A stretch of 64,000 bases of DNA from Candidatus Methylomirabilota bacterium (GCA_016209735.1 JACQVN010000009.1:113986-177985); one strand, 5' to 3'; shown: positions 7,500-53,270, numbered from the stretch's first letter. The notes: generated from the letters alone by a model not told the origin. Numbers and translations are program-made.

Positions 7500-9398
7500 T
7501 CAGGCGATCCTCCGGGACCCCCGGGGGTCGAGGATTTCCCGCATCCACAGCTCCAGCATCATGAGCGCCCACAAGCGGTCGCCGTGGTTGCGGGCACCGC
7601 TGAGGTGTTCCTGCTTCAAGCCATCGACGGTCGCGGCGACCAAGAGGCCTCGTCCGCGCACCCGTCGGGCCGAGAGAAGATCCTCCATGACCTCTCGGAG
7701 GTCCGTCCGCAGCCATTGCCCAAGAGGAATCATGAAGCCTTGTTTCCGGTGGTTGAGCACTTCGGGGGGCAGCAGGGCGGCGAAGGCCTGTTTCAGGAGT
7801 CCCTTCAGCCGAAAGCCGGGCAGCTTGACGGCGGGCGGGATCCTCAGGCTCTCCTCGATGACTCCGTGGTCGCAAAATGGGGCGCGGAGTTCGAGGGAGT
7901 GTGCCATGCTCATCCGGTCTGCCATGGTCAAGAGATCGTCCGGGAGGTAAGTGGCGAGATCGATCCGAAAAGCCCCGTCCACGACCCCATCATGCCCGTG
8001 CGTCGCATAGGCATCTCGCTGTGCCGCCTCGACGTCCGAAATCCAGCGGGCGCGAACCTCCGGCGCGACAAGACGCTCCAGCTCCGCTTCGCGAAAGAAG
8101 CGGGTCCAGCCGATGTACCGATCAGGCATGGACTCTTCTGCCCCCCTGGCGAAGCGGCGGACCCAATCGCCCCAGTTCCGGCTGGCGTCGGTGTCGGAGA
8201 TCAGGCGCGAGCCAATGGAGCTGACCGGGCTCCGGAGCCATCCGGGCGTCCTGGCATACCACTCCGCAAGTCGAACGCCGAGGTAGCGGGGATATCCGGC
8301 GAAGGTTTCGTCTCCGCCGATGCCAGAAAGGGCAACCTTGACGTGCCGTGCCGTGGCTTGTGCGACCACGTAAGTCGGGATGGCCGAAGAATCCGCGAAC
8401 GGTTCGTCGAACTGGCGGACAATGGGGGTCAGGAGGTCGACCGCCTTGGGGGCCAGGATCTCTTCATGGTGATCCGTCTCAAAACGCCGCGCCACCGCGC
8501 GGGCATACGGAAGTTCGTTGAAGGAAGGGGCGGAAGGCCCGAAGCCGATCGAGAAGGTCGCGATGCGCTGGCTGGTGACCTCACGCATGGTGGCAACGAC
8601 TGCGCTGGAGTCGATCCCACCGCTCAGGAAGACTCCCAGCGGGACATCGCTCTCGAGGCGAAGGCGAACGGCCTCCCGCAGTATGTGTCGGATGCGGGCA
8701 GCCGCCTCGGCGGGAGACGGGGCCGGCACGAACTCCCCTTGGGGAAGGCCCCAGTATCGTTCGACGGCCAGGCTCCCCTGTCTGAAAGTGGCCCTGTGCC
8801 CTGGCGGAAGCTTGCAGATGTCAGAGAATATCGACCGATCAGCCGGCGTGTACCCGAAGGCGAGATAGTGATGGAAGGCCTCCCAGTCGATGTTTCCCCC
8901 CGCCTCGGGATGGCAGAGGAGCGCCTTGATCTCCGAGGCGAAGAGGAACAGACCATCCCGCTGCCAGTAAAAGAGGGGTTTCTTTCCCATCCGGTCCCGG
9001 GCGAGGAAAAGGCGCCGCCTCCCGGCATCCCAGATGGCGAAGGCAAACATCCCCCGGAGGGTCTCGACGCAGTGCTCCCCCGCCTCTTCGTACAGATGGA
9101 GGATCGCCTCGGTATCGCTCCGGGTCCGGAACAGATGCCCCCGGCTCTCGAGATCTCCCCGGAGGTCGCGGTGATTGTAGATCTCGCCGTTGAAGACGAT
9201 GTGGAGGGAGCCATCCTCGTTCGTCATGGGTTGGCGACCGCCGGCGAGATCGATGATGGAGAGACGCCGCATCCCCAGTCCAACTTCGGGACCGACCCAT
9301 ACCCCCTCATCGTCCGGTCCGCGGTGCGCGAGAACGCCAACCATCTGCTCCAGCACGGCGCGATCCCTCTCTCCAACGAAACCGGCGATGCCGCACAC
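7500..9398 (-). CDS. asnB: Asparagine synthase (glutamine-hydrolysing)-like amidotransferase
   Basis: MCGIAGFVG N-terminus, RGPDDEG, SGGIDSSAVVA PP-loop. Confidence 0.92.
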   Translation of the reverse strand: MCGIAGFVGERDRAVLEQMVGVLAHRGPDDEGVWVGPEVGLGMRRLSIIDLAGGRQPMTNEDGSLHIVFNGEIYNHRDLRGDLESRGHLFRTRSDTEAILHLYEEAGEHCVETLRGMFAFAIWDAGRRRLFLARDRMGKKPLFYWQRDGLFLFASEIKALLCHPEAGGNIDWEAFHHYLAFGYTPADRSIFSDICKLPPGHRATFRQGSLAVERYWGLPQGEFVPAPSPAEAAARIRHILREAVRLRLESDVPLGVFLSGGIDSSAVVATMREVTSQRIATFSIGFGPSAPSFNELPYARAVARRFETDHHEEILAPKAVDLLTPIVRQFDEPFADSSAIPTYVVAQATARHVKVALSGIGGDETFAGYPRYLGVRLAEWYARTPGWLRSPVSSIGSRLISDTDASRNWGDWVRRFARGAEESMPDRYIGWTRFFREAELERLVAPEVRARWISDVEAAQRDAYATHGHDGVVDGAFRIDLATYLPDDLLTMADRMSMAHSLELRAPFCDHGVIEESLRIPPAVKLPGFRLKGLLKQAFAALLPPEVLNHRKQGFMIPLGQWLRTDLREVMEDLLSARRVRGRGLLVAATVDGLKQEHLSGARNHGDRLWALMMLELWMREILDPRGSRRIA

Positions 9399-29887: not shown

Positions 29888-31222
29888 TCAGCTTCTGTCA
29901 GGGGACTGCCCAGCGCGGAAGACGCCACCTCGAGGCGGCAGGCATGCGCTCTCTGGGCCCGTATTGTGCGTATCAGCCCTGGTGGTCCGGGCATCCAACC
30001 CCGGCGTTCGGTGATCCTGGCGAGGGGCAGAATGCCGGGTGAAGGTGGGGGATGGCCCACCCATGAGGTGGAGGGCGAGACTCCGCAGCACCCCGAGCCC
30101 CAAACGCCAGATGGTTCCCCATCCCGTCTTCTTATTGCCTGCGTCGGAGAAGCCGGTCCGAAACGCATCGGAATGAGGGAAGAGGATCTGCCGGAGGTAG
30201 AGGAGCTTATGCCTCCAGCCGGCGAGGCCGCACAAGGTAAACGCGTAGCGAACTGCCTCGGGCAGTGTCCCGCGGGAGGCGGCCGCCACGAGTCTCCGCT
30301 CGCCAGCGTACAGAGATCGGGGGCGGACCCGGTCCTGCAAGTCGGGGGAGGGCAGGCCCCGGATGGTCATGGCCTCCAAACAATACCAGAGGCTTCGACG
30401 GACGGAAGCGGGCATGGCAGCCAGATCGTTCGCTGGCAAGGGCCATTTCTCCATGCACTGCAAGAGGTCGGCCATCCAAAGGGACCCCGCCAGCCCATGG
30501 TGGTGAACGGCGTGGACGGCCAGGTGAATGGCGGTGTCAAGGGGCCCCAATGTCTGGATCGGCGTGCCCACGAGCCGGAATGTCCGATGGCGGCCCCAGA
30601 GCTCTGCAAAAGATACGGGCCAGAGCGCCCGCCGGGCGGGGATGCGCGTGACGTTCATCGGGGCGGTGTGCACGTCCAGGCTGAATTCCCGAGACGGGGG
30701 GAAGAAATCCTCCTCGCCCCGCAGGTCGTTCCGGTAGCCCCGCGTCCGCAGAATCTCCGCCAGCCCGTCCCTGTCGTTCTCCCGCACGAGAAGGTCGATG
30801 TCATCCATGGGGCGCGGGATCCCTGGGGGATAGACGGTGGCGGCGAGGGCAACTCCTTTCAGCACGAGAAGGGGAATCCCGGCCCCCGTCGCGTGGTCGA
30901 CAACCTCCACACACGCCTGCTCGAGGCGCGAAAGCCGGATCCCTGCCCGGAGCGTTTCGCGCCGCGCTTCCCGGAGGCACTCGGCCGGAACCCCGCTCGT
31001 CTTTGCCAGGCCCCGCGTGAGTCCGGCATAGACGAAAGGGGTCAGGCGGTTCGCCCGGGACTCGCGAAGGAGCGCCGGCCATTCCACGTGCCCGTCGAGG
31101 CGCGCCGCGAGCCGCAGAGAGGCGTCCTGGTGGCCCAGACCCGCCAGGGCGGCATCCCACATCAGGCGCGCGGTACTTTCTTTTTGACTTCCCGCCGCGC
31201 TGACCGTATGCTCCCGTGCCAT
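29888..31222 (-). CDS. NTP_transf_5-type nucleotidyltransferase (PF14907-like)
   Basis: PLLVLKGVALAATVYPPGIPRPMDDIDLLVRENDRDGLAEILRTRGY; ATG at 31222 (alternative GTG at 31246). Confidence 0.82.
   Translation of the reverse strand: MAREHTVSAAGSQKESTARLMWDAALAGLGHQDASLRLAARLDGHVEWPALLRESRANRLTPFVYAGLTRGLAKTSGVPAECLREARRETLRAGIRLSRLEQACVEVVDHATGAGIPLLVLKGVALAATVYPPGIPRPMDDIDLLVRENDRDGLAEILRTRGYRNDLRGEEDFFPPSREFSLDVHTAPMNVTRIPARRALWPVSFAELWGRHRTFRLVGTPIQTLGPLDTAIHLAVHAVHHHGLAGSLWMADLLQCMEKWPLPANDLAAMPASVRRSLWYCLEAMTIRGLPSPDLQDRVRPRSLYAGERRLVAAASRGTLPEAVRYAFTLCGLAGWRHKLLYLRQILFPHSDAFRTGFSDAGNKKTGWGTIWRLGLGVLRSLALHLMGGPSPTFTRHSAPRQDHRTPGLDARTTRADTHNTGPESACLPPRGGVFRAGQSPDRS
31184..31212 (+). promoter_or_regulatory. 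Sigma70-like promoter for PqqD: TTGACT-N17-TATGCT
   Basis: TTGACT 31184-31189, 17-nt spacer, TATGCT 31207-31212; ATG lies 8 nt downstream with no SD. Confidence 0.55.
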
Positions 31223-31520
31223 GGTTGGGTTATCCGATTCCGCCACCTACCGGCAAGCCGAGGACTTTGTCTCCAGGAACATCGCCGGCGAGACGGTCCT
31301 CGTGCCCCTCCGCCGGCAGATCGGGGACTTGGATTCCATCTACACCCTGAACGAGGTCGCCACCTTCATCTGGGAATGCCTGGCCCAACCCAGCACAGTG
31401 GGCCAGCTCACCCAGGCCCTCGGGGAAGCCTTCGACGCCCCGCCGGCCACGATCCGGCAGGATCTCGAGGAGCATCTCGGCCAGCTCCTGGCTATCGGGG
31501 CCATCCGGCCAGCCGCCTGA
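31221..31520 (+). CDS. PqqD family peptide chaperone (RRE-like)
   Basis: VLVPLRRQIGDLDSIYTLNEVATFIWECLAQPSTVGQLTQALGEAFDAPPATIRQDLEEHLGQLLAIGAI. Confidence 0.9.
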   Translation: MVGLSDSATYRQAEDFVSRNIAGETVLVPLRRQIGDLDSIYTLNEVATFIWECLAQPSTVGQLTQALGEAFDAPPATIRQDLEEHLGQLLAIGAIRPAA

Positions 31521-31980
31521 CCCCTTTCCGCAGCCGTTCCCCGCTTTCCCCGATCACCCCGCCGCCCAGGGACCGCACTCCGCGGAGGATGCCGGCGATC
31601 CGCGGCCAGCCCCGGTCCAGCGCGATCACCGCTTCCCCTCGGACACGCGCCGCAACGATCGCTGCCACACGGTCTGCCGGGAAGGGAGGATCGAATCGCC
31701 AGAGGCTGTCCCCCTTGGTGAGAAGCCAAGGCTCGCCGTTCCGCCGCAGGCGGCCCACCAGGCGATGGGTGCGGGGCCCCGAGGCGCCGAGCCAGACGAC
31801 GACGGTCCCGAACCGTAGTCCTCCGGAGGCTGCCGGGACGAGCCGGAGGGTGTCTCCGTGCTGGAAGGCGGGGGACATGCTGGACCCGCGGAGGCGAATC
31901 TCCGCCCGCCGCTCGGCCCTGTCCAGCGCCTCGACCACCGGGCCCAGGAGTTCCGGCCGCAGTCGCAGATGATGAGTCAT
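31492..31980 (-). CDS. S24/S26 family peptidase (signal-peptidase-like)
   Basis: LRGSSMSPAFQHGDTLRLVPA...RTHRLVGRLRRNGEPWLLTKGDSLWRFDPPFPADRVAAIV; ATGA overlap with the upstream gene. Confidence 0.78.
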   Translation of the reverse strand: MTHHLRLRPELLGPVVEALDRAERRAEIRLRGSSMSPAFQHGDTLRLVPAASGGLRFGTVVVWLGASGPRTHRLVGRLRRNGEPWLLTKGDSLWRFDPPFPADRVAAIVAARVRGEAVIALDRGWPRIAGILRGVRSLGGGVIGESGERLRKGVRRLAGWPR

Positions 31981-32855
31981 CCCTGCGCCAGCACCCATTC
32001 CACCGCCCGCTCGTCCGGTGGAACCATGAGCCAGCCGGACGGGACGTCTCGGCAGGCCGCCTCCAGCACCTCGAGGGTGCGGGCGAGCCGCTCGGGATCC
32101 CACAGGGGCGGGAAGGACTTGGCGAACAAGAGGGCGGCAGCGGCGACCGGCCGGAGCGGTTCGAACGCCACGTCGGGTCCCTGGCGCAAGAAGAAGATAG
32201 CGTGAAGCGGAGTCGCCGTTCCGCCCACATCCGGATGCTGGCCGAACCAGGGGGTGGCGTGGATTCGAATGCCGCCGGGCGAGGCTTCGAGGATGGTGCG
32301 ATCGTCGTTCAGCATTGTCCCACCGGCCGCCTTCCACAATCCGGCCGTGGTGCTCTTCCCCGCCCCGGACGAGCCCACGAACAGATACCCCCGCCCCTGC
32401 CAGGAAATCCCGCAGGCATGGAGCAAGACGCTGCCGAAATCTGCCAGCAGGTGACGGAACAGCAGTTCTTCCAGGGGGTATTGAAGCGGATAGACGCTCT
32501 GGAGTTCCGGCGACTGCTCGATATCCAGGTCGAGTGTCCCCCCCGCTCCGGAAGCGTCCAGGGTGGCGGCCCTATCCGGTCGAATCTCGGCATCATCTCC
32601 GCCGACTTGAAATCGCCAGGTGCGACCGTTCAGGTACACGCCGGCCAGACCGCCTAGGCGAAACACCGGCCACCGGCGCGTGCCGGCGAGGGAAATGTAG
32701 CGCAGCCGAACCGTCAGGTCGGGACTTGGCGTGGATTCCAGGAACCGATGGTGAGCGGGATCGAGCGGCCATCGGGACCCGTCGAATTCACCCTCCAGGG
32801 CGATGCAGGGTGGCCCGATGCGAAGGCTGATTCGCTGATATGGCGGGGGACTCAC
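31977..32855 (-). CDS. HprK-like P-loop kinase
   Basis: VLLHACGISWQGRGYLFVGSSGAGKSTTAGLWKAAGGTMLNDDRTIL. Confidence 0.82.
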   Translation of the reverse strand: MSPPPYQRISLRIGPPCIALEGEFDGSRWPLDPAHHRFLESTPSPDLTVRLRYISLAGTRRWPVFRLGGLAGVYLNGRTWRFQVGGDDAEIRPDRAATLDASGAGGTLDLDIEQSPELQSVYPLQYPLEELLFRHLLADFGSVLLHACGISWQGRGYLFVGSSGAGKSTTAGLWKAAGGTMLNDDRTILEASPGGIRIHATPWFGQHPDVGGTATPLHAIFFLRQGPDVAFEPLRPVAAAALLFAKSFPPLWDPERLARTLEVLEAACRDVPSGWLMVPPDERAVEWVLAQG

Positions 32856-32880
32856 GTCTGTGGGTATTCTTTGCGTCCCT

Positions 32881-33075
32881 TCATGAGCCCGTGCTGTCTC
32901 TGCACCGACCAGGTCCTGAAATCGTGCACGGGGTCGGCGGCGTCACGTTCCTTCCGCCGCCCCCTGGCGGGAAGGTGCTCTTGCAGTTGGGGGTGCCCGC
33001 CATCTCTTCCCCCACGAGGTTCACCCGCTCGATGCTCGGCTTGGCGTAGGGCCTCTTCCGTCCTTCATTGCTCAT
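32881..33075 (-). CDS. Putative RiPP precursor peptide (64 aa)
   Basis: MSNEGRKRPYAKPSIERVNLVGEEMAGTPNCKSTFPPGGGGRNVTPPTPCTISGPGRCRDSTGS; SD AGGAG 6 nt upstream of ATG; 25 bp ahead of the HprK-like gene. Confidence 0.72.
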   Translation of the reverse strand: MSNEGRKRPYAKPSIERVNLVGEEMAGTPNCKSTFPPGGGGRNVTPPTPCTISGPGRCRDSTGS

Positions 33076-33334
33076 AGCGTGCTCCTGCGCAGGTCCCCGA
33101 TTGACCAGTTGACCAATCCACGAATCGACTAACGATCTGACCCAACCTGGCCCCCTCCGGCTCTCTCGCTCCGCCTCTCGCGAGGATGAGCAGGATGCTG
33201 AATCCCCCTCCGTTCGCCCTTCGATCCCGCCTGGGCGGGACTCAGGCTGAGCGGAGGATAGCTCGAAATCCATGGTGTAGTCCCGCTCATGCTGAGCCCG
33301 TCGAAGCATGGAAAATTTCGTTTTTAGCATCCTG

Positions 33335-34441
33335 CTAGAAGAGGGGAGGCTTGGTTTCCCCGAAGGCTCGAGCCCGAGCCCGCGTGACCTCGCACAGAAA
33401 CGGAATCAAGCCCTCCGGATCTCCGGTTTCGATCTGCGACCACCCGATACACCTATCGCAGGCGGCATTGTACGCGCAACCATCGCACGGGACGGCTCTG
33501 GTGCGGAGCCGGGCCCGCATGGCCGGGAAAAATTCCTCCCACCCCTGCCGTAGCGAGCCTTCCTGCAGATTATAGGCCGGCCAGCGGACCAGCATGCAGG
33601 GGAAGAGATTCCCGTAGGGATCGATATGGAAGGTATTGAGGTATGCGCCGCAGGTGACCAGGTCCTCGGGGGGGTCGAACCGGTGCCGCTCCCGGAATTC
33701 CTTGCGGAAGTGCTCCGCCCGGACTGGTTCTTGAGCATCCAGGGCGGCAATCTGCTCGCCGCTGAGCCGGACTGCGGCCGGACCGGTGCCGCCGTCCACG
33801 CGGCAGTTGATCAGCGGATCCCAATGGAATTTCAGCCCGAACCAGGCGGCCAGGGACCGCATCCCGTCCATGTCGTGGCTGTTCAAGGTCATGGGGATGG
33901 TCTTGAGGCAGACGCGAAGTTTCCGGTTCAGGAGCCGTTCGATGCCCTCGATGCATCGGCGGTAGGAGCCAGGAATGCCGGTGACCGCCTCGTAGACGGG
34001 CTGGGTGCTCCCGTAAACGGTGATCTCCACCGAGAAGGGGGGCCATTCCGCCAGGAAGTCTGCGACGCGCGGGGTGAGCATCGTGCCGTTGGTGAACAGG
34101 GTGGGCACCACCCCCCTCCGCTTCATGTGGAGGTAGATGTCCATGAAGTCGGATCGGAGGAGCGGCTCGCCGCCCGTGAGGAGCAGGTAGAGGCACCCCA
34201 GATCTACGGCCTCGTCGGTGATGCGATGAATCTCTCTAGTCGAGAGTTCCTCGTGCCTGACGCGGCGGGCCCCAGGTGGCTCGTTCACATAGCAGTGGAC
34301 GCACCGCAAATTGCAGCGGAACGTCAGCTCGATGCTGCCGTCGAGCGGGATGCGTTCCCTGCTGACACGGGTCGCGATCCGCGCGTAGAATCCCTCGTAA
34401 CGGATTGTCGGGACCGAGCGCCTGGGGCAGATTGCCGTCAT
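33335..34441 (-). CDS. Radical SAM/SPASM domain protein
   Basis: ELTFRCNLRCVHCYV (CxxxCxxC), TGGEPLLR; SPASM-like cysteines CGAYLNTFHIDPYGNLFPC...CDGCAYNAACDRC...FLCEV. Confidence 0.92.
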   Translation of the reverse strand: MTAICPRRSVPTIRYEGFYARIATRVSRERIPLDGSIELTFRCNLRCVHCYVNEPPGARRVRHEELSTREIHRITDEAVDLGCLYLLLTGGEPLLRSDFMDIYLHMKRRGVVPTLFTNGTMLTPRVADFLAEWPPFSVEITVYGSTQPVYEAVTGIPGSYRRCIEGIERLLNRKLRVCLKTIPMTLNSHDMDGMRSLAAWFGLKFHWDPLINCRVDGGTGPAAVRLSGEQIAALDAQEPVRAEHFRKEFRERHRFDPPEDLVTCGAYLNTFHIDPYGNLFPCMLVRWPAYNLQEGSLRQGWEEFFPAMRARLRTRAVPCDGCAYNAACDRCIGWSQIETGDPEGLIPFLCEVTRARARAFGETKPPLF

Positions 34442-34884
34442 GGCAACGGAAGGACCGAATCCGGGATGTTGACCACGCCGACAAAGTTGCTGCCGACGTC
34501 GGTGACGATCAGCCGGACCGCGCCAGGGATGGCCGGGATGTGGAACGCATCGGCGACAACGGCGAGGGGGGTGTCCCGATGGATGGCGACACTCCGCAGT
34601 TCGCAGAGCGTCAGCGTCCCGATTTTCGCAAACGTCTGCACCTCAGCCACCCCGAAAATTCCGTACGGCGTGGTAATTGCCGCGACGCCGTTGGGATATC
34701 CAGGTGAGCGCGGCAGGACCGCCACCCCTTCGGGGTAGTCTATCCCGGCGAGTCGCCCCTCCCCGGGGTTAAGATCCGGGCCGTTCTGTATTCGGAGCTG
34801 TGCCCATGACGTACAGGAGAGTGTTGGTCGAGAGATCGACGCGTCGGGCCGGCACCGACCCGTCCTTCTTGGTGGCCGCGACAA
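34438..34884 (-). CDS. Small protein of unknown function, coupled to the radical SAM gene (true start uncertain)
   Basis: Stop overlaps radical SAM start as ATGA; GIDYPEGVAVLPRSPGYPNGVAAITTPYGIFGVAEVQTFAKIGTLTLCELRSVAI. Confidence 0.45.
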   Translation of the reverse strand: MSRPPRRTGRCRPDASISRPTLSCTSWAQLRIQNGPDLNPGEGRLAGIDYPEGVAVLPRSPGYPNGVAAITTPYGIFGVAEVQTFAKIGTLTLCELRSVAIHRDTPLAVVADAFHIPAIPGAVRLIVTDVGSNFVGVVNIPDSVLPLP

Positions 34885-52734: not shown

Positions 52735-53270
52735 TCCTGCCCCCTGGTTCTTCCCGCCCACCCTGAGCCCGTCGAAGGGTGGCCTCTGGCCTCTGACCAC
52801 TGGCCTCCGCCCTTCCCATTCCGCATTCATCATTCCGCATTCGGTACTGCCCCCTGCCTTCCCGCCTTCGGCGGGATTTCGTCACGCCATGGCGTGACTC
52901 AACCTGCTGCCCCCTGGTTCTGATCCCTGCCCGCTGCCCGCTGCCTCCTGCCCCCTGATCCCCGTCCTTCCCATTCCGCATTCCGTCCCTCGACACGCTC
53001 GGGACGCCCTGAGCTAGTCGAAGGGCGCATTCATCATTCCGCATTCGACCCTGCCCCCTACTCCCCTGGACGGGGCTCATGGCTCATAGCTCATGGCCAA
53101 GACCGGTCCCCCATGAGCCATCAGCCATCAGCCACGAGCGAGTTACCGTCCATGGTCCATCGTCCATCGTCCATGGTTCCGACCTCTGCCCTCGGACCTC
53201 GGACCTCCGACCTCTGGTTCCTGCCATTCCGCATTCATCATTCCGCATTCGGTACTGCCCCCTGCCCCCG
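52735..53270. repeat. Dense degenerate heptamer arrays
   Basis: attccgc attcatc attccgc attcggt; ccatggt ccatcgt ccatcgt ccatggt; cctcgga cctcgga cctccga cctctgg. Confidence 0.85.

Follow-up and report, generated by a model that had tools for sequence, protein, structure and literature searches.

A recurring radical SAM and HprK-like kinase cassette whose precursor peptides almost always end in serine

What kind of product is made by a compact set of genes that combines a kinase and nucleotidyltransferase known from lasso peptide clusters with a radical S-adenosylmethionine (SAM) enzyme? Such a set, hereafter the cassette, lies at positions 29,888 to 34,884 of a 64,000-nucleotide stretch from a Candidatus Methylomirabilota bacterium (GCA_016209735.1 JACQVN010000009.1:113986-177985), which we call the window; its genome is a metagenome-assembled genome (MAG) that is 69% complete. 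A preliminary description of the window had named six genes here (a radical SAM/SPASM protein, a 64-aa Cys-containing peptide, an HprK-like kinase, an S24/S26-type peptidase, a PqqD protein and an NTP_transf_5-type nucleotidyltransferase) and proposed that they form a pathway for a ribosomally synthesized and post-translationally modified peptide (RiPP). All six are present, as judged by coordinates, family scores, motifs and a structural model of the kinase. We consider it probable, by a modest measure, that the cassette makes a leader-guided RiPP with a radical-SAM-modified core, a terminal Ser/Thr phosphorylated by the kinase, an extension added by the NTP_transf_5 protein, and a leader removed by the S26-type peptidase. 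The most informative feature is a new result that the preliminary description had missed: the precursor peptides end almost invariably in Ser.

The precursor gene of the window (33075-32881, minus strand), which has an AGGAG upstream of its ATG, encodes 64 aa with a YxxP leader, three Cys residues in the core and a C-terminal GS. The suggestion that this peptide is the precursor was borne out, since a conserved small peptide occurs at the same position in related loci; judged by this conservation, it belongs to a real precursor family of 64 members. These precursors were found beside the enzymes with an iteratively extended leader profile (n = 64, three of them added by eye) that was trained on ~34 residues from the leader onwards. 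Because this profile excludes the terminus, a conserved terminal residue is not built into the search. The alignment gives the consensus YxKPxxxxVxLxxEEAVLxxCKxxxxxGPxxxxCxxxxxC, in which P13 and C31 are invariant and Y10 and C50 near-invariant, and no family in Pfam or NCBIfam covers these peptides. The last residue is Ser in 53 of the 64 precursors, Thr in 8 and another residue in 3. As a background, Ser accounts for 9.9% of the remaining core residues and for 9.2% of the C-terminal positions in the cassette enzymes, and Thr for 9.2% of the core residues; the binomial p-value of 1e-42 for the terminal Ser is only indicative, as the precursors are related to one another. Among more distant loci, the precursor ends in Ser in 23 of 26. 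One genome (G095) carries two precursors, of which the one adjacent to a kinase ends in GS and the second, with no kinase nearby, in NA. Locus L011 was considered as a clean no-kinase control and rejected, as a kinase is encoded elsewhere in its genome and the contrast is a within-genome one only.

Related loci were gathered with a profile of the radical SAM protein alone, and the other genes were then sought with iterated profiles. The profile matched 23 of 95 genomes in the phylum of the window (E <=1e-60) and, at E <=1e-80, 68 of the 396 genomes that share a phylum with an Acidobacteria-titled record and 19 of the 400 that share one with a Chloroflexota-titled record. In 72 radical SAM loci from these three phyla, some of them cut by contig ends, the HprK-like kinase was found 68 times, PqqD 64 times, the S26-type peptidase 51 times and NTP_transf_5 31 times. 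Among the seven genomes of the window's own genus, the radical SAM gene is present in three (G000, G003 and G006) and absent from four (G001, G002, G004 and G005), and PqqD scores above its cut-off in all three genomes with the cassette versus none of the four without it; within the MAG, PqqD and NTP_transf_5 were each found once only, in the cassette. This co-occurrence, together with the matching pattern of PqqD in the genus, shows that the cassette is a recurring accessory unit rather than a chance cluster. The preliminary description had held that a lack of co-occurrence in related genomes would count against its idea; the partners do co-occur, and the gene content of the relatives bears out the proposed combination of PqqD, SPASM radical SAM enzyme, kinase, nucleotidyltransferase, peptidase and precursor. 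The cassette was not found in the viral contigs searched, and a search of plasmids returned a single match at 26% identity, from a PqqD/radical SAM/YcaO/TfuA cluster, which is a different system.

The genomic setting invites another explanation, namely that the enzymes belong to an exopolysaccharide locus or to the synthesis of a redox cofactor and that the small open reading frame (ORF) is incidental. Exopolysaccharide genes indeed adjoin the cassette in the window, where Wza- and Wzc-like genes come after it, and in its closest relative, locus L013 of G003, which retains both this neighbourhood and the inversion of PqqD. The exopolysaccharide setting given in the preliminary description therefore stands for these two loci, with this one relative from the same genus as its only confirmation, and the envelope machinery is at most a possible part of the system. 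However, the precursor family accompanies the enzymes in all three phyla, frequently amid quite different genes, and we regard an incidental ORF as very improbable. Among these other neighbours is a large C25 (gingipain-type) peptidase, mostly of 1000-1500 aa, which is encoded near 25 of the 72 cassettes in all three phyla (L011, L016, L111, L116, L144, L146 and 19 others) and is absent from the window; in open-licence literature, we found no description of an association between C25 peptidases and RiPPs.

The enzyme that bears most directly on the terminal residue is the HprK-like protein (32855-31977, minus strand, 292 aa). It scores below the cut-off with Hpr_kinase_C (12.5 bits) and under every curated model. 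Its AlphaFold model (predicted local distance difference test score 81.7) adopts an HprK fold, with HprK/P of L. casei as the top Foldseek match in the PDB (E 2.9e-5) and phosphoenolpyruvate carboxykinases close behind. In BsfK, the kinase of the bsf lasso peptide cluster, the residues H148, G163, G166, G168, K169, S170, D186 and D187 are conserved among lasso-precursor kinases, and six of them mattered when mutated (PMC10368454). All eight of these catalytic residues recur in the window kinase with their spacing unchanged (H146, G161, G164, G166, K167, S168, D184 and D185). Across 68 kinases, H146, G161, G166 and K167 are invariant and D184 is kept in 63. In the remaining five (L142, L145, L146, L149 and L150) D184 is replaced by Glu, and their precursors end in M, V, T, P and T; in the main set, the precursors beside D184 kinases end in Ser/Thr in 59 of 59 cases. 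HprK homologues from lasso peptide pathways place a phosphate on the C-terminal Ser of their substrates, and in pseudomycoidin a nucleotidyltransferase adds a hexose to the C-terminal Ser phosphate (PMC8498205). From the conserved, co-varying terminus and the complete lasso-kinase active site, we infer that the kinase phosphorylates the C-terminal Ser/Thr hydroxyl.

The remaining enzymes suggest how the other steps might proceed. PqqD (31221-31520, plus strand, 99 aa; PF05402, 61.9 bits, cut-off 23.4) would act as the RiPP recognition element (RRE) and bind the 64-aa precursor by its YxxP leader. The radical SAM protein (34441-33335, minus strand, 368 aa) matches PF04055 with 81 bits (cut-off 29.5) and the Pfam SPASM model weakly (15.9 bits), and has the CxxxCxxC motif (C43, C47, C50) as well as all seven SPASM Cys residues in the arrangement C264-x12-G277-x4-C282, C319-x2-C322-x5-C328-x2-C331 and C350, with the motif residues conserved in 60-75 of 75 sequences; it would modify the Cys-containing core, most likely through a Cys-derived crosslink. 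The NTP_transf_5 protein (minus strand, 444 aa from 31222 to 29888, or 452 aa from 31246) matches PF14907 with 116.9 bits (cut-off 31.2), and its D149 and D151 (452-aa numbering) are conserved in 31 of 31 sequences. Where encoded, it may place a nucleotidyl or glycosyl group on the terminal phosphate, by analogy with pseudomycoidin. The S26-type peptidase (31980-31492, minus strand, 162 aa) has no Pfam match and scores 26.5 bits with the NCBIfam signal peptidase I model (cut-off 51.85). Its SMxP, GD, HR and GD motifs are conserved across the family, with M154, P156, H191, R192 and D210 in 50 of 50 sequences and S153 in 47 of 50 (numbering of a longer ORF). This putative Ser/His-pair peptidase would take off the leader, and since no membrane segment is evident by eye, it is plausible from the sequence that it does so in the cytosol.

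Several points weigh against this pathway. Gene content, conservation, the terminal Ser/Thr, the kinase residues and, as a predicted model, the kinase fold are directly established, whereas the five proposed steps are all inferred from them. No exporter was identified within the cassette, and the closest relative, L013, has no S26-type gene. The five loci with Glu at position 184 form a single clade and represent one co-change rather than five, so the Fisher p-value of 3e-5 overstates the association. In addition, three of the more distant precursors (L215, L219 and L223) end in D, G and D beside catalytically intact kinases and are real exceptions. Finally, BsfK phosphorylates the internal Ser3 of its precursor (PMC10368454), and the type of kinase alone thus cannot fix the site. 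These last two points also favor a rival account, in which the phosphorylated Ser/Thr lies inside the core, as it does in the BsfK substrate, and conservation of the terminal Ser has a different cause, for example that the radical SAM enzyme or the peptidase recognizes it; the cores are indeed rich in both residues. Nevertheless, the terminus reaches a majority residue in the alignment while no internal Ser/Thr column does, and the terminal Ser was lost in the very clade whose kinase changed its first Asp. We therefore consider an internal site unlikely for the family as a whole, and favor phosphorylation at the terminus. The exceptional loci, together with L227, form a distinct subfamily with the motif WxxPAIEWEExxEPVVFAASCTxxxFNCGxGA, intact HprK-like kinases and mostly no terminal Ser, and here phosphorylation may possibly be internal, as in BsfK.

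How does the cassette relate to systems that have already been named? Kinase-bearing lasso peptide clusters (paeninodin, pseudomycoidin and bsf) have in common with it a discrete RRE, a YxxP leader and an HprK-type kinase, the Y..P of the cassette resembling the YxxPxL motif found in lasso leaders (PMC10368454). Paeninodin-type substrates also have a C-terminal Ser, and the pseudomycoidin and bsf clusters a nucleotidyltransferase. In contrast, the cassette has a SPASM radical SAM enzyme, an S26-type peptidase and a Cys-containing core in place of the B2 transglutaminase-like peptidase and lasso cyclase. The preliminary description had seen neither of these lasso enzymes, and the relatives give the same picture; B2 (Transglut_core3, PF13471) has no match in the window's genome at its 69% completeness, and no cyclase was found in the cassette. 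The sole Asn synthase among the scanned ORFs lies ~20 kb away in the exopolysaccharide locus (7503-9398, minus strand), is nearest to the XrtA/PEP-CTERM amidotransferase (596 bits, cut-off 816.9) and reaches 277 of the 525 bits needed for the lasso cyclase model. We therefore rejected a lasso peptide identity.

A closer parallel in gene content is the SynChlorMet (SCM) cassette (TIGR04248-04251), whose NCBIfam models likewise combine HprK-like, PqqD-like and SPASM radical SAM proteins, and the locus could be a divergent member of this named system without new tailoring logic. ScmC is the best NCBIfam match of the kinase (28.7 bits, and 43.9 in L019, against a cut-off of 125), and ScmD (20 of 100), ScmE (71.8 of 400) and ScmF (67.1 of 400) match as well. 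Yet these scores all fall far under the curated cut-offs, on which ground SCM membership was rejected; a single radical SAM enzyme is present rather than ScmE plus ScmF, an S26-type peptidase and NTP_transf_5 are added, PqqD scores higher with lasso RRE models, and no SCM model matches the precursors. We judge a divergent SCM cassette improbable. The HPr-rel-A system (TIGR04352, 18.4 of 200 bits; TIGR04353, 20.1 of 35) was also rejected, as were the named SPASM systems, among them those for pyrroloquinoline quinone, mycofactocin and heme, since every score fell under its NCBIfam cut-off. Sactipeptide/ranthipeptide and PqqE/SkfB-type enzymes share the CxxxCxxC and SPASM Cys pattern, and PqqE (6c8v) and the sactisynthase SkfB (6efn) are the closest solved structures by sequence; however, the similarity is distant, no NCBIfam maturase cut-off is reached, and the RRE is a separate protein here. 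Lasso-like PqqD proteins beside radical SAM enzymes, as in the cassette, were noted in the RRE-Finder study, which called ~300 such RREs false positives of the lasso model; we found no class or precursor defined for them there, and its main text does not contain the word "kinase" (PMC7470986).

In order of transcription, the minus strand carries a possible 95-aa ORF, the radical SAM gene, the precursor, the kinase, the peptidase and NTP_transf_5, with an ATGA overlap between kinase and peptidase that the preliminary description had also reported. PqqD and NTP_transf_5 are divergent, and both of their ATGs lie inside one CCATGG at 31220-31223; with overlapping start codons, there is no room for an intergenic promoter, provided that the starts are correct. 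The 95-aa ORF (34725-34438, minus strand), which falls inside the range given in the preliminary description but is unlisted there, has a gene-like GC content by codon position (0.67/0.47/0.78) and is coupled by ATGA to the start of the radical SAM gene. It has no family match in Pfam or NCBIfam and no homologue in the related loci, and its membership of the cassette is unsure. Between the radical SAM and precursor genes lies an element resembling repetitive extragenic palindromic sequences, TTCGACGGGCTCAGCATGAGCGG (33283-33305), of which two degenerate copies occur at 52754 and 57407 (chance expectation 0). In one relative, L014, a pair of ABC transporter genes adjoins the cassette.

The components of the cassette thus have precedents in the lasso kinases and nucleotidyltransferases, in the SCM cassette, and in lasso-like RREs beside radical SAM enzymes. 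In open-licence literature, we found no description of the combination of radical SAM enzyme and kinase, or of a terminal Ser in radical SAM cassettes. In our judgement, the chances are about even that the loci represent a widespread and as yet unnamed RiPP class, whose members are modified by a radical SAM enzyme and carry a phosphate on a C-terminal Ser, extended in some lineages by a nucleotidyl or glycosyl group; the lasso tail module would here have been combined with a radical SAM scaffold. The YxxP leader, EEAVLxxCK, the terminal Ser, and HprK, PqqD and SPASM proteins together provide a searchable signature for this group, and the family offers dozens of natural substrates for testing. 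C-terminal phosphorylation and its extension by a nucleotidyltransferase are already known in lasso peptides; that what seems to be the same tail module recurs on another scaffold, in lineages that are mostly uncultured, suggests that modifying the tail serves a purpose in its own right.

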